In this document: positions 36,136-49,340 of the stretch, in pieces
Layout of the letters: every line of letters starts with the position of its first letter
How positions within the stretch are numbered: the first letter of the stretch is position 1
DNA from: Deltaproteobacteria bacterium
GTDB taxonomy: Bacteria > Desulfobacterota > DSM-4660 > Desulfatiglandales > Desulfatiglandaceae
Length of the DNA: 49,554 bases
Direction of reading: 5' to 3'
Assembly (NCBI GenBank): GCA_019310785.1
Contig: JAFDDR010000011.1
Location: 1 to 49,554, forward strand
Program-made: the position numbers and the translations under genes
Notes under the pieces: generated by a model
Database searches by the model: none
Seen by the model: the letters and a program-made list of their open reading frames with translations, nothing else
Told to the model about the DNA's origin: nothing

Positions 36136-36233
36136 AGCTGTATACATGCTACTTCCTCATATTTTATATATGAAGACCGGAGTCTGAGGGCTCAACCCTG
36201 CAATTGTAAACATATGTGTTCAGGAGCTTAACA

Positions 36234-38531
36234 ATGGAAGCAAAAGCAAAAAATAACCTTTCCGACGACCAAAAAAAGCTGATTTATTACAAAGCGTTGA
36301 ATGATATCGGCAATCAAATCCACGCTGCAAAGAATATCGATGAAATTCTTATCAGCCTCAAGGACAACATCCTGAGCCTTTTTGAGGCCGACCGGATCAC
36401 GATCTATGTGGTGGACGTGAAGAAAAGGGAGATCTATTCGCGCTTCAAGGGCGGGGGTGATACCGTGGAAATCAGGGTCCCCATCAATAACAAGAGCCTT
36501 TCCGGGTACACTGCCGCAAACGCCCAGATCACTAATGTGGTCAATGCATATGACAGTGCTGAACTGGCCATGATAAACAAGGATCTTTCCTTTGACAGCA
36601 ACTGGGACAAGAAATCCGGTTATAACACAAAACACATTCTGACCGTTCCTATCCTGTACAAGAAGTATGTAATCGGCGTGCTGCAGCTTATAAACAAGAA
36701 AAACGGCGACCGCTTTACCTTGGATGACCAGAACTCGGCAGTGGAAATGGCAAAGGTCCTGGGCATAGCCTTTTTCAACCAGAACAAGATGACAAAGAAG
36801 AGGGGGAAGAAGACCCGGTTTGATTACCTGCTCAAAAACAATCTTATTACCGATAAAGAGCTGCAACAGGCCATTACATCGGCCAGGGCCCAGAGGACTT
36901 CAGTTGAATCGATCTTTTTAAACGAAATGAAGGTCAAGAAGGCCGATATCGGTCAATCCCTTGCCGAGTATTACAAATGCAAATACATTGCCTTTGATAA
37001 CAACCACCCCATTCCCGGAGACCTCTTGCCCAGAGTGAAGCAGGTCTTCTTGAAGAGAAACCTGTGGGTGCCCCTTGCCAAAGAAAATTCCAAGGTAACG
37101 ATTCTCATAGACGATCCCCAGCGTTTAGACAAAATTGACACCATAAAATCCCTGATCAAGGCAAAGGAGTACGAGTTTGCCGTGGGTCTCCAGGAAGATA
37201 TCCTCCAGTTTTTGGACTATTTCTATGGCACGCCTCCTCCCGAGGACCAGGGCTCCATTGACGAAATCTTAGGGAAATTGGACTCGAATGAAGATGAAGA
37301 TTTTGACGATGGCACGGACATGCTGACGGAAGACGACAGCGCCATTGTCCAGCTCGTAAACAAGATCATTTTAGATGGCTACAAGAAGAATTGCTCGGAT
37401 ATCCATATCGAACCCCAGTTGGGTAAACTTGGCGCCGAAATCCGGTTCAGGATTGACGGTGCCTGCCAGAAATACCAGACGGTTCCTTACCAGTATAAGC
37501 GGGCCGTGGTATCAAGGTTAAAAATCATGTCGGATCTGGATATCTCCGAGCGCAGAAAACCGCAGGACGGAAAGATCCAGTTCAAGAAATTTGCACCCCT
37601 TGATATCGAATTAAGGGTGGCTTCACTTCCCACGGTAGGAGGGGAAGAAGATATCGTCATGCGTATCCTTGCTGCAGGCGAACCCATTCCCTTGGAGGCC
37701 ATGGGGATGAGTGAAAGAGACCACAAGCTTGTCCTCGAAAAGATTGCCACTCCTTACGGTATATTCCTGGTTGTGGGACCAACCGGAAGCGGAAAAACCA
37801 CCACCCTTCACTCGGCGCTGGCCCATATCAACAAGCCGGAGACCAAGATCTGGACGGCAGAAGACCCGGTGGAAATCACCCAGAAAGGGCTGCGCCAGGT
37901 CCAGGTCCAGCCCAAAATAGGCCTTGACTTTGCCGCGGCCATGCGCTCTTTTTTGAGGGCCGACCCGGATGTGATCATGGTGGGTGAGATGAGAGACCAC
38001 GAGACCGTTTCTACCGGTATAGAGGCATCCCTGACAGGCCACTTGGTCTTCAGTACCCTCCATACGAACAGCGCCCCGGAGACCATTACAAGGCTCTTAG
38101 ATATGGGCATGGACCCGTTTAACTTCGCTGATGCCCTCTTAGGTGTCCTGGCCCAGCGTCTTGTGAGGACACTGTGTAAATCCTGCAAAGAAACCTATCA
38201 TCCTGATCGCAAGGAATACGATATGCTCGTCCATCAGTATGCCGGGGATTTTGACGCCCTGGGCTTCCCCTATTCCGAGGACCTGGAACTTTACAGAGCC
38301 AATGGATGCGATAAGTGTGCGAACACCGGGTACAAGGGCAGGACCTGCCTCATGGAGATCCTTGACGGCACGGACGAAATGAAGACGCTCATCCAGCAGA
38401 AGGCCTTAATGGAGGATTTGAGAGAACAGGCCGTAAAGGATGGGATGACCACCCTTATGCAGGACGGGATCAGAAAGGTGTTTCTTGGCGTGACCGATAT
38501 CCTGCAGGTCAGGAAGGTGTGTATAAAATAA
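36234..38531 (+). CDS. GspE/PilB-type secretion ATPase with N-terminal GAF domain
   Basis: GAF-like N-terminus (ADRITIYVVDVKKREIYSRF..VPILYKKYVIGVLQLINKKNGDRFT); T2SSE VVGPTGSGKTTTLHSAL, PDVIMVGEMRDHET, CKSCKETY..CDKCANTGYKGR. Confidence 0.95.
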   Translation: MEAKAKNNLSDDQKKLIYYKALNDIGNQIHAAKNIDEILISLKDNILSLFEADRITIYVVDVKKREIYSRFKGGGDTVEIRVPINNKSLSGYTAANAQITNVVNAYDSAELAMINKDLSFDSNWDKKSGYNTKHILTVPILYKKYVIGVLQLINKKNGDRFTLDDQNSAVEMAKVLGIAFFNQNKMTKKRGKKTRFDYLLKNNLITDKELQQAITSARAQRTSVESIFLNEMKVKKADIGQSLAEYYKCKYIAFDNNHPIPGDLLPRVKQVFLKRNLWVPLAKENSKVTILIDDPQRLDKIDTIKSLIKAKEYEFAVGLQEDILQFLDYFYGTPPPEDQGSIDEILGKLDSNEDEDFDDGTDMLTEDDSAIVQLVNKIILDGYKKNCSDIHIEPQLGKLGAEIRFRIDGACQKYQTVPYQYKRAVVSRLKIMSDLDISERRKPQDGKIQFKKFAPLDIELRVASLPTVGGEEDIVMRILAAGEPIPLEAMGMSERDHKLVLEKIATPYGIFLVVGPTGSGKTTTLHSALAHINKPETKIWTAEDPVEITQKGLRQVQVQPKIGLDFAAAMRSFLRADPDVIMVGEMRDHETVSTGIEASLTGHLVFSTLHTNSAPETITRLLDMGMDPFNFADALLGVLAQRLVRTLCKSCKETYHPDRKEYDMLVHQYAGDFDALGFPYSEDLELYRANGCDKCANTGYKGRTCLMEILDGTDEMKTLIQQKALMEDLREQAVKDGMTTLMQDGIRKVFLGVTDILQVRKVCIK

Positions 38532-44992: not shown

Positions 44993-45162
44993 TGGTCCGC
45001 TCATAGGTTAAAATTAAAACTGCCGCAATAATGGTTTAAAAGACAGCTCGTGGAGGAAAAGACCTGATTTTCGTAGCTACTGTTTCCCACGTGCAGGGTA
45101 TTGATTTGACAAAAAAATATTTTGATAATATGATTAAATGTAATAGCTCAGTAAGCGGTGTT

Positions 45163-45323: not shown

Positions 45324-47903
45324 ATGGAATACGTAGAGGAAATAGTAAGCGGAAAGATGGATGTCACTGCCGTCAAAAAGGTCCTTGATGAAAGTCTGAA
45401 TGAGGACGATTTCTATTGTCATAAAAGCCGTAACCTGCTGAACGGCATGGGCCTTAAGGCAGAAGAGGCCCTCAAGTTGTTAGCCCACCATAAATCGAGT
45501 GTCAAATATGGCTACGATCTTTCCGCAGACGCCCTCTCCCATCTACTGGAACTTGCCGGAACAAGAGAAAAAGAAGCCCCGCTCAAAATGCTGATCAAAT
45601 CCCCATTTTTCCTTGTGAAGACCTGCTGGTTATACGAACATGCCCCTTATTTCTATTTTTTCGGCGAGTATAATTCAGATGACCTTGACTCTCTGATAGT
45701 AGATTTTGCCGGCAAATACGAAAGCCGTTTTTTGAAGAACAAGGTTGCTATTGACACGTGGAAAAAAACAGAAAAACCAAGGCGCGTTATAGCTACCACG
45801 TTTTGGGAAAGCGAAATCATTGATCCCGTCTTGTTGGTCAAGAAAGCAATGGATGATAATATTCAAGGGATTGAAGTCTGTTTTGATTTTCATCCATTCA
45901 ATTACAGCAAGCTGCTCCCGGAAGAGCTGACGAGCGAAAAACGGGAACAGATAAAAAAGGCATGTATGAGAAGTGGAACAAAAATTAATATCCACTCACC
46001 CATTGTGGGCCCTTATACTCCCTCGCCCGACCCATCCAAGGGAACACAACGATTTTTTGATCCTACACAATGCATTGAAGTCCAGCATGACGTCATTGAA
46101 TTGGCGAAGGATATTGGAGCGGGATCCGTGGTTTTCCACTTGATTGACAGCGCTAACCTTAAAAAATTAGCGGGCTTGATTGAGAAGGCGGGCGGAAGCG
46201 ACGTAAGGATAACCATTGAGAACTACTGCCAGACAAAAGAGTGCCAGAATTCGGATATGTTCATCGCCTGTATGGATGAAATCTTCCATTTGCTTCCCAA
46301 AGAAGTAAGAGAAAGAAATTTCGGGTTAACCTTGGATGTGGGCCATTTGAATATTGAGGGGGAGGATCCCTTAGTGGGGGCCGAGAGAATCGGGTACTGG
46401 TGCCTGGAAAATGGCATATATCTTCGTATGCACGCCACCGATAATTATGGGAACCTCCTTTTCAGCCCACCCGCTTTCAGTGCCGACGTACACAGCAATG
46501 TCTCGGGCCGGGGAGTAAACAATGCGCTGATTATCAAGCTTTTACGCAGCATGGGGATCCAATTCGATACCGTTGCGGAACAGATTCAACCCCTTACGCC
46601 GGAAGACATTGCCACCATACATGACGCACAGACCTATCCCCTTGATAAGACCTATGCGTCTTTTGTGAAAGAGGGTGGGGAGAAGCTGTCTGCAGCGGAA
46701 TCAGGTGCGATTATAGGGCCTGAGATCGTTAAAGAAAATGCCTACCTGTTTTTGGCGGGAATGGAAGATATCTCTTCGCTTCGAGAATACCTTGTCTACA
46801 GAAAAATTCAGGAGAAAAAGAACTTATCCGTTGATGAGGCAAAAAGGATATCCCAGGAATTTATAAAGATGCCTCAGAAACTGAAGGCGGACTTGACCAC
46901 ATACATTGACGATCTATTGCTGCCGATTCAGAGTGAAACCGGCGCCATACAGAAGAGTGTGCTGGATTTGGTCTGCCAGAATATAGCCGGGGCCGTATTC
47001 GGGTCCATCAGCAATGAACACCTGAACAAAATTTTTGATAAAGAGAAGGTCTACGAGAACAAGGATACTATCTGTGAGCAGAACAGCCTCGGACACGAGA
47101 TGTATTACTTGAAGGATGGCGAAGTGGCTGTCTACATTGACGGGTCTCGTGTGGCTTTATTAGGTCCCGGAGAAATATTCGGCGAGATGAGCCTGTTTTA
47201 CAATATTAATAAATCGGCTACCATCAAGGTCGCCGATAAAGAAGCAAAAGTTGGGGTATTAACACGCAAAGGGCTGGAAAACCTGTTCAAAAGCGGCCAG
47301 CCATATGCCCACGATCTGATCTACAGGCTTTATAATCTCCTCCCTGAGAGGCTAAGAAATCTTAATGACAAGTATAAGACCGCAATTCGCACGCTTCATC
47401 TCATTTTTGACGGGGATGAGAAGAGTATCCCAAGCCTCGACCACATAACCATGGATATCAAACGTGAAGAAGCGGACCTCTTTCCCACGCTGTCTCAAGA
47501 CGAGATAACTAATGTTTTTAAGGAATTCAGGCTCTTTGATGCGGACCATTCTGTTTTTTCAGAGGGAGATCAGGGGGACGGGGCCTATTTTATTATTGAA
47601 GGAAACGTTAAAGTAATTACCCAATCCTATGATTGCAAGGAGATAGTCTTGGGCGAACTGGGCGAAGGTGAGATCTTTGGTGAAATGGCCCTCATAGATG
47701 CCAGGGAGCGATCTGCGTCCGTTGTGACCCTTACCCCGTGCAAGATGGCGTTTATTGCCAAAAAACCGTTTAATGAATTCATTGAAGCCAGGTCTGACCT
47801 GGCTTTCCGTTTCATGGGTTTTACCTGCTTATCGCTTTTCAGGCACATCCTTCGGTTAGACATGCTCTATTCGGATATCAAAAAAGAAATTAACGCTTTC
47901 TGA
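45324..47903 (+). CDS. TIM-barrel (xylose isomerase-like/AP endonuclease 2 fold) protein with two C-terminal cNMP-binding domains
   Basis: Barrel motifs GIEVCFDFHPF, INIHSPIVGPYTPSPDP, VVFHLID, ITIENYCQ, LTLDVGHLNIEGEDP, LRMHATDNYGN; CNB1 GPGEIFGEMSLFYNINKSATI; CNB2 GEGEIFGEMALIDARERSASV. Confidence 0.85.
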   Translation: MEYVEEIVSGKMDVTAVKKVLDESLNEDDFYCHKSRNLLNGMGLKAEEALKLLAHHKSSVKYGYDLSADALSHLLELAGTREKEAPLKMLIKSPFFLVKTCWLYEHAPYFYFFGEYNSDDLDSLIVDFAGKYESRFLKNKVAIDTWKKTEKPRRVIATTFWESEIIDPVLLVKKAMDDNIQGIEVCFDFHPFNYSKLLPEELTSEKREQIKKACMRSGTKINIHSPIVGPYTPSPDPSKGTQRFFDPTQCIEVQHDVIELAKDIGAGSVVFHLIDSANLKKLAGLIEKAGGSDVRITIENYCQTKECQNSDMFIACMDEIFHLLPKEVRERNFGLTLDVGHLNIEGEDPLVGAERIGYWCLENGIYLRMHATDNYGNLLFSPPAFSADVHSNVSGRGVNNALIIKLLRSMGIQFDTVAEQIQPLTPEDIATIHDAQTYPLDKTYASFVKEGGEKLSAAESGAIIGPEIVKENAYLFLAGMEDISSLREYLVYRKIQEKKNLSVDEAKRISQEFIKMPQKLKADLTTYIDDLLLPIQSETGAIQKSVLDLVCQNIAGAVFGSISNEHLNKIFDKEKVYENKDTICEQNSLGHEMYYLKDGEVAVYIDGSRVALLGPGEIFGEMSLFYNINKSATIKVADKEAKVGVLTRKGLENLFKSGQPYAHDLIYRLYNLLPERLRNLNDKYKTAIRTLHLIFDGDEKSIPSLDHITMDIKREEADLFPTLSQDEITNVFKEFRLFDADHSVFSEGDQGDGAYFIIEGNVKVITQSYDCKEIVLGELGEGEIFGEMALIDARERSASVVTLTPCKMAFIAKKPFNEFIEARSDLAFRFMGFTCLSLFRHILRLDMLYSDIKKEINAF

Positions 47904-47948: not shown

Positions 47949-49340
47949 TTAGGCGTTTTCCCTAATACTCCTGGAAAGGCGTTGGATCAACGTCATTGCA
48001 AAGGTTTTCAGGAAGAGCAGCTGCATGGATTTTGAAGCCCTGTCTAACAACGTGGCACTGATCTTCATCAAGTTACAATCAGTCTCAGCCAATACCGTTG
48101 CTGCACGTGCCTGACCGCTAAGATATGACATCTCTCCAAAACATTCGCCCCTGCCGATTCGGGCGATAAGCTTATCGTTTTTCCGGACCACGGCCTTCCC
48201 GCTGAGGATAATAAAAAAAGCATCGTCAATCTCCCCTTCGGCCACCACTATCTTGCCTTTGCGAATCTTGATAACATTGCTTGCCTTCAGGATCTCTCTG
48301 ACCTGATTTTTGTTGAAATGCTCAAAAAAGGGCGCACTGTGTACGTAATCAATCACATCCTCAACTTTTGAGCTTTTGATGGTCCCTTTCAGGCCCCTTA
48401 AGGCAACTCTCAGATCGTAGGCAAAATCCCCGCAAGTCTGATACCGCTCATTGGGATCCTTGGCAAGTGCCTTCTTCGTAATCTTTTCCAATATTGAGGG
48501 GATCTGCGGACGAATTTCCCGCATGGGAATCGGGTCCTCTCTGGCGATTTTATACATTATGGAAAAATGATTTTCGCCTGGAAAGGCCAGTTCACCGGTC
48601 AGGAGTGCATACAATAGACACCCTAAGGAAAAAATATCGCTTTTGTCATCAACCGGCTGGTCTCTCACCTGTTCAGGGGACATGTAACTTGGGGATCCCA
48701 CAATACCATGTGATGCGGTCTGATCCGATTTGATCTTCGCGATGCCGAAATCGGTTATTTTAACGTATCCGGCCTTGTTGATCATAATATTTGAAGGCTT
48801 GATGTCTCTATGGATCACTCCTTTTTTATGGGCATAATCAAGTGCCTTACAGGTCACAAAGATGATCTGGACAACATTACTGATGGGTAGCAGGTACTCC
48901 TTATTGCAGAATTTATTGAGCGTGGGACCGTCAATATATTCCATTGTCATGTAACAAAAATCCTTGATTATGCCTACATCGTAAATCGACACAATATTGG
49001 GATGCATGAGCCTTCCCACTGACTGGGATTCGTTAAAAAACTGCTTCCGATATCTGTCGGCCTTCTCTCCCACAACATCGGCGGAAGGTCTGGAAATCTT
49101 GACGCCCACATGTCTATTAATATAGGGATCTTTGGCCAGATAGACCACGCCCATACTGCCCTGACCTACTTTTTTAATGATTTGATATCTGTCAATAGTA
49201 TTAACGTCCGAGATGTCATCAAGAAACTTGTTGTCGACCGGGCCTGCCTTTTTGCCACCACCCAAAAACTTGACCTTCAACCAACCGGTTAGTCCATGCT
49301 TCTTGGGTTCGGCCTTTTCTGCTTTTTGTTGCTCTGTCAA
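47949..49340 (-). CDS. Ser/Thr protein kinase with C-terminal cNMP-binding domain
   Basis: YQIIKKVGQGSMGVVYLAKD, VGVKISRP, GVIHRDIKPSNIMI, KITDFGIAKI, GSPSYMSPEQV; CNB GRGECFGEMSYLSGQARAATVLAETDCNLMKI. Confidence 0.95.
   Translation of the reverse strand: MTEQQKAEKAEPKKHGLTGWLKVKFLGGGKKAGPVDNKFLDDISDVNTIDRYQIIKKVGQGSMGVVYLAKDPYINRHVGVKISRPSADVVGEKADRYRKQFFNESQSVGRLMHPNIVSIYDVGIIKDFCYMTMEYIDGPTLNKFCNKEYLLPISNVVQIIFVTCKALDYAHKKGVIHRDIKPSNIMINKAGYVKITDFGIAKIKSDQTASHGIVGSPSYMSPEQVRDQPVDDKSDIFSLGCLLYALLTGELAFPGENHFSIMYKIAREDPIPMREIRPQIPSILEKITKKALAKDPNERYQTCGDFAYDLRVALRGLKGTIKSSKVEDVIDYVHSAPFFEHFNKNQVREILKASNVIKIRKGKIVVAEGEIDDAFFIILSGKAVVRKNDKLIARIGRGECFGEMSYLSGQARAATVLAETDCNLMKISATLLDRASKSMQLLFLKTFAMTLIQRLSRSIRENA

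Follow-up and report, generated by a model that had tools for sequence, protein, structure and literature searches.

What does a bacterial protein do that carries a metal-site (beta/alpha)8 barrel and two cyclic-nucleotide-binding (CNB) domains in one chain? The question is raised by a gene in the 49,554-nucleotide stretch of deltaproteobacterial DNA analyzed here (the window). The predicted domain architecture points most naturally to a nucleotide-gated enzyme, and we therefore considered what the barrel may catalyze and whether the CNB domains look able to bind a ligand.

Domain layout and conservation of the fusion gene

The open reading frame (ORF) at 45324..47903 on the plus strand begins with ATG and encodes 859 amino acids without interruption, as a sequence-only reading of this DNA had reported, and every motif quoted in that reading was found in it (ITIEN, LTLDVGH, RMHATDN, AEQI, FGEMSL...NINKSAT and FGEMAL...RERSAS). 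From the N terminus, the protein comprises a helical domain, a PF01261 barrel, a helical linker, CNB1 and CNB2. The Pfam-type search and the AlphaFold model that the same reading had proposed both agree with its description of a barrel fused to two CNB domains. PF01261 (AP_endonuc_2) covers residues 177-412 at E 2.7e-8, its 34.3 bits exceeding the cut-off of 31.1, and PF00027 (cNMP_binding) matches two stretches, at 128.9 bits and E 7.3e-38 together and at 82.1 and 56.5 bits individually against a cut-off of 27.5. The model of residues 10-445 (pLDDT 88.3, pTM 0.89) contains the eight strands of a barrel, and the top fold matches of the CNB tandem are PKA regulatory subunits and PKG, with E values down to 5.8e-16. 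In the full-length model (pLDDT 74.7, pTM 0.61), the placement of the barrel relative to the CNB domains is poorly defined.

Conservation is uneven along the protein. The all-helical N-terminal domain (residues 1-150; 45324..45773, plus strand) matched no Pfam family even at E 5 and is the least conserved region, whereas the barrel (residues 151-440; 45774..46643, plus strand) is the most conserved, with a mean identity of 63% compared with 46-58% elsewhere. The helical linker between the barrel and CNB1 (residues 441-565; 46644..47018, plus strand) is also conserved and is modeled in part with low confidence.

Searching 84,980 species genomes for two conserved peptides identified 29 loci; with just these two patterns in the search, the number is a minimum. 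Nearly all of the loci belong to Desulfobacterota/'Deltaproteobacteria' MAGs (Desulfobacterales, Syntrophales, Smithella), with one in a Lentisphaerae-labelled MAG, and the fusion is present in 11 of 61 related genomes, the window's own genome included. The family alignment (A3) combines the window protein with those of 25 loci whose full-length protein was usable; these 25 are 40-87% identical to the window protein. All 26 members have the same architecture and match both PF01261 (at E<=0.001) and PF00027. In two samples of the phylum, of 395 and 297 genomes, a barrel-only search returned no copy without CNB domains. Comparison with the nearest relative gave a dN/dS of 0.065/0.288 for the whole gene and 0.052/0.387 for the barrel. 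The presence of both Pfam families in 26/26 members and the whole-gene dN/dS together indicate a real gene under purifying selection, conserved in sulfate-reducing and syntrophic bacteria, and the strong conservation and low dN of the barrel are as expected of an active enzyme.

Some loci are broken or incomplete: L058, which shares its contig with L019, carries an in-frame stop, and in L059 and L062 the fusion gene is split. These may reflect sequencing error or decay. The homologue in the Lentisphaerae-labelled MAG (L060, contig JABHEG010000179.1) is about 50% identical and may have arrived there by transfer or by mis-binning.

The barrel and its predicted metal site

The strands of the modeled barrel span residues 153-158, 180-186, 220-224, 268-272, 295-299, 333-338, 366-372 and 414-419. 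Strands 3, 4, 5, 6 and 8 end at H224, H272, E299, D338 and E419, respectively; H341 lies just past strand 6, and H370 lies within strand 7. For endonuclease IV (Endo IV, Nfo), we take the ligands of the trinuclear site to be H69, H109, E145, D179, H182, H216, D229, H231 and E261. In a joint alignment with Nfo, eight of the nine ligands fall in the same columns: H224 (45993..45995) with H69, H272 (46137..46139) with H109, E299 (46218..46220) with E145, D338 and H341 of the DVGH motif (46335..46346) with D179 and H182, H370 (46431..46433) with H216, and D388-x-H390 (46485..46493) with D229-x-H231. The last pair sits in the loop between strand 7 and helix 7, which is modeled at a pLDDT below 50. 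The ninth, E419 (46578..46580; all on the plus strand), occupies the position of E261 in strand 8 with the alignment off by about two columns.

All nine positions are invariant in the 26 members. Given 71 invariant columns among the 290 of the barrel, the hypergeometric probability of this is about 2e-6, a value that flatters the case because the ligands were picked after the alignment had been seen. From the strand positions in the model, we infer that the nine residues cluster in space, and the barrel looks to hold a trinuclear metal site with all the ligands of Endo IV. Two uncharacterized PF01261 proteins of the same genome (L065:1486-2277 and L066:1414-2214, both on the minus strand) show this trinuclear-type pattern as well; the first adjoins an ORF at 386-1396 that is DHH-type phosphoesterase-like by sequence. 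The D-x-H pair occurs in both and in a third such protein (L068); the ligand set is thus common to a wider group than Endo IV and is no proof of Endo IV chemistry.

Profile-profile comparison placed CbiR nearest to the barrel (E 2.3e-7, probability 93.5), followed by Endo IV (E 1.9e-3, probability 14.2). The CbiR model was weakly matched by 22/26 members and the deoxyribonuclease IV model weakly by 6/26. Xylose isomerase has a similar fold at 14% identity, and no xylose-isomerase family model was matched. The earlier description of a xylose isomerase-like metal-site TIM barrel is supported as to the metal-site barrel, with PF01261 above its cut-off and ligands at the strand ends, and needs revision as to the likeness, since the ligand set, including D-x-H, is that of Endo IV and the nearest profiles are CbiR and then Endo IV.

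In a phylogenetic tree the fusion barrels form one clade (support 100/100) that is separate from both CbiR and Nfo and has a branch length of 4.8 changes per site; its exact neighbors are poorly supported (60/44) in a tree with long branches. CbiR (NF041277; PMC7733943) shares the PF01261 barrel and the His/His/Glu/Asp-x-x-His/His ligands through strand 7, but it lacks CNB domains, is about 250-290 amino acids long, is encoded in cobamide loci, and has D-H with a gap where the fusion barrel has D-x-H and H-x-H-G where the fusion has HATDN. Endo IV (TIGR00587) shares the fold and the complete nine-ligand set at equivalent positions, but it too lacks CNB domains, its profile match is weak, and it falls in a separate clade.

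The CNB tandem and its signaling context

CNB1 (47019..47294, plus strand) has the phosphate cassette FGEMSLFYNINKSAT with E621 and K630. In CNB2 (47529..47789, plus strand) the cassette is FGEMALIDARERSAS and contains E787 and R796, which are invariant in 26/26 members. In CNB1, the glutamate is likewise present in 26/26 and the cassette arginine in 23/26, with lysine only in the window protein, L036 and L044, a change that the tree identifies as derived. The position of PKA Ala202 is held by Ser or Gly in CNB1 and by Ala, Ser or Gly in CNB2; Glu, which at this position turns trypanosomatid PKA to nucleosides (PMC10959531), is absent. In PKA, the corresponding Arg-to-Lys substitution lowers cAMP affinity nearly ten-fold (Kannan et al. 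2007; PMC2246266).

The earlier observation that the usual arginine of CNB1 is replaced thus holds for the window, where the replacement is a conservative lysine, but not for most of the family. The conclusion drawn from it, which reserves ligand sensing for CNB2, lacks support: CNB1 keeps the Gly-Glu pair and a small residue at the Ala202 position, and the equivalent substitution in PKA reduces affinity without abolishing it. With both glutamates kept, arginine or a conservative lysine in the cassettes and no Glu at the Ala202 position, binding of a cyclic nucleotide seems possible for both CNB domains; in this species CNB1 may bind with lower affinity. The tandem order and canonical cassettes resemble those of PKA-R and PKG; however, the fusion is bacterial, and its tandem is joined to an enzyme barrel rather than to a kinase or a kinase-inhibiting segment.

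The window's own genome (G000, a 4.0-Mb MAG) encodes 15 class III cyclase (Guanylate_cyc) domains and 17 CNB domains, which makes a ligand and a signaling network plausible. These counts suggest that the host has a rich cyclic nucleotide network and likely makes the cyclic nucleotide itself. Convergent to the fusion gene lies a PknB-type Ser/Thr kinase gene with a C-terminal CNB domain (47949..49340, minus strand), a single-chain bacterial counterpart to cyclic-nucleotide-dependent kinases. The kinase is 96% identical in L036 and 79% identical in L044. Only these close relatives keep its gene near the fusion, and in L044 the arrangement is looser. Elsewhere in the window (36216-38531, plus strand) a T2SSE/PilB-type ATPase carries MshEN and an N-terminal GAF domain.

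Examination of the neighborhoods of the 29 loci revealed no neighbors conserved beyond subclades, and an operon-based assignment of function was rejected for this reason. Within subclades, signal peptidase/NusG-like neighbors recur in one family, and abhydrolase and 5'-nucleotidase genes recur in two loci. Two related loci, L042 (6125-7834) and L046 (equivalent position), have a gene for a 5'-nucleotidase/calcineurin-type phosphoesterase immediately upstream of the fusion and on its strand. In the window the fusion gene stands alone behind a 331-base gap, and a sigma-70-like site, TTGACA-17-TATGAT (11/12), lies upstream (45106..45134, plus strand); such sites were no more frequent than in shuffled sequences, so transcription as a single gene is only suggested. 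An anti-phage role was discarded, as all PADLOC matches were to Pycsar effectors and confined to their CNB parts, with no cyclase partner next to the gene, and so was an origin from a virus or plasmid, the sole matches being CNB-only.

Candidate activities and their biological meaning

We tentatively favor, on the strength of predicted sequence and model features, a cytoplasmic, cyclic-nucleotide-regulated, metal-dependent phosphoester or phosphodiester hydrolase. According to this proposal, a host class III cyclase would produce cAMP or cGMP, which would bind the CNB tandem in its PKA-R/PKG-like arrangement, and the movement on binding would pass through the conserved helical linker to open or close the active site of the barrel. 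Once active, the barrel would hydrolyze a phosphoester or phosphodiester, the type of reaction catalyzed by CbiR and Endo IV, its nearest characterized relatives. As a substrate, abasic DNA fits less well than a nucleotide or a small-molecule phosphodiester. There is a slim prospect that the fusion represents a new class of second-messenger effector, a trinuclear-metal phosphodiesterase gated by cAMP/cGMP whose substrate is new for the superfamily; one example would be a nucleotide second messenger, whose hydrolysis would close a feedback loop in this cyclase-rich bacterium.

The strongest competitor, which we consider unlikely, is a cyclic-nucleotide-gated sugar or sugar-phosphate isomerase or epimerase. 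Such enzymes fall within PF01261, and the fold search ranked MJ1311 (tagatose-epimerase-like) first and returned D-tagatose 3-epimerases and glucose isomerase; Endo IV ranks among these sugar isomerases, so the search does not separate isomerase from hydrolase chemistry. However, the invariant D-x-H after strand 7 aligns with that of Endo IV, the CbiR and Endo IV sequence profiles are favored over any isomerase model, and no sugar pathway genes travel with the fusion in the neighborhoods across the loci. Because the nearest characterized profiles are those of phosphodiesterases and the D-x-H pair is kept, we rank the hydrolase above the isomerase as a moderate preference.

It is improbable that the barrel has lost catalysis and serves as a scaffold, or that the CNB domains play a structural part without binding nucleotide. 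Many bacterial CNB-like domains do bind other ligands or none (PMC2246266), and the lysine in CNB1 of this species could be read in that light. Against this, the metal ligands are invariant throughout the family, purifying selection is strongest on the barrel, and both cassettes are canonical across the members.

A cyclic-nucleotide-gated AP endonuclease or other DNA or RNA nuclease, perhaps standing in for a missing Nfo, would account for the full Endo IV ligand set, for the weak deoxyribonuclease IV matches and for the window's genome, in which Nfo was not found (no match to TIGR00587 at E<=0.001, the fusion ORF included). We nevertheless regard it as quite improbable. After the first ligand histidine, the fusion barrel reads HSPIVGPY where Nfo reads H(D/N)SYLIN, and I227-V228 would, by this alignment, replace Tyr72-Leu73, which we take to be the DNA-recognition pair of Endo IV. 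Moreover, G001, G010 and G024 carry both Nfo and the fusion, which rules out replacement of Nfo as a rule. A CbiR with a sensor, that is, a cNMP-gated cobamide phosphodiesterase, is very improbable, for although CbiR is the closest characterized profile, the barrel falls far below the CbiR equivalog cut-off (NF041277; 27.9 versus 105 bits), lies in a separate clade, differs at the D-x-H and HATDN positions, and has no cobamide genes identified among the fusion neighbors examined, whereas 203 CbiR genes of the defining study adjoin cobamide genes (PMC7733943).

The hydrolase that we favor would belong to an architecture for which no earlier description was found in the open-access literature, of which coverage was partial; this agrees with the sequence-only reading, which knew of no characterized protein of the kind. 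Bacterial proteins that combine CNB domain(s) with a catalytic domain in one chain include the EAL enzyme Bd1971 (PDB 6hq4), the acetyltransferase Pat and the Pycsar CNB-TIR effectors. CNB-enzyme fusions are thus already known, and it is the pairing with an Endo IV/CbiR-type barrel that was not found in that literature. The catalytic domains of these proteins differ from that of the fusion, and they generally carry one CNB domain instead of two in tandem at the C terminus. Nor was any paper found there on cyclic-nucleotide effectors of this kind in Desulfobacterota. As the fusion is a soluble single-chain protein, its metal content, ligand and substrate are directly testable. If the barrel is gated as proposed, cyclic nucleotide signaling in Desulfobacterota would act through the fusion directly on metabolism or nucleic acids.
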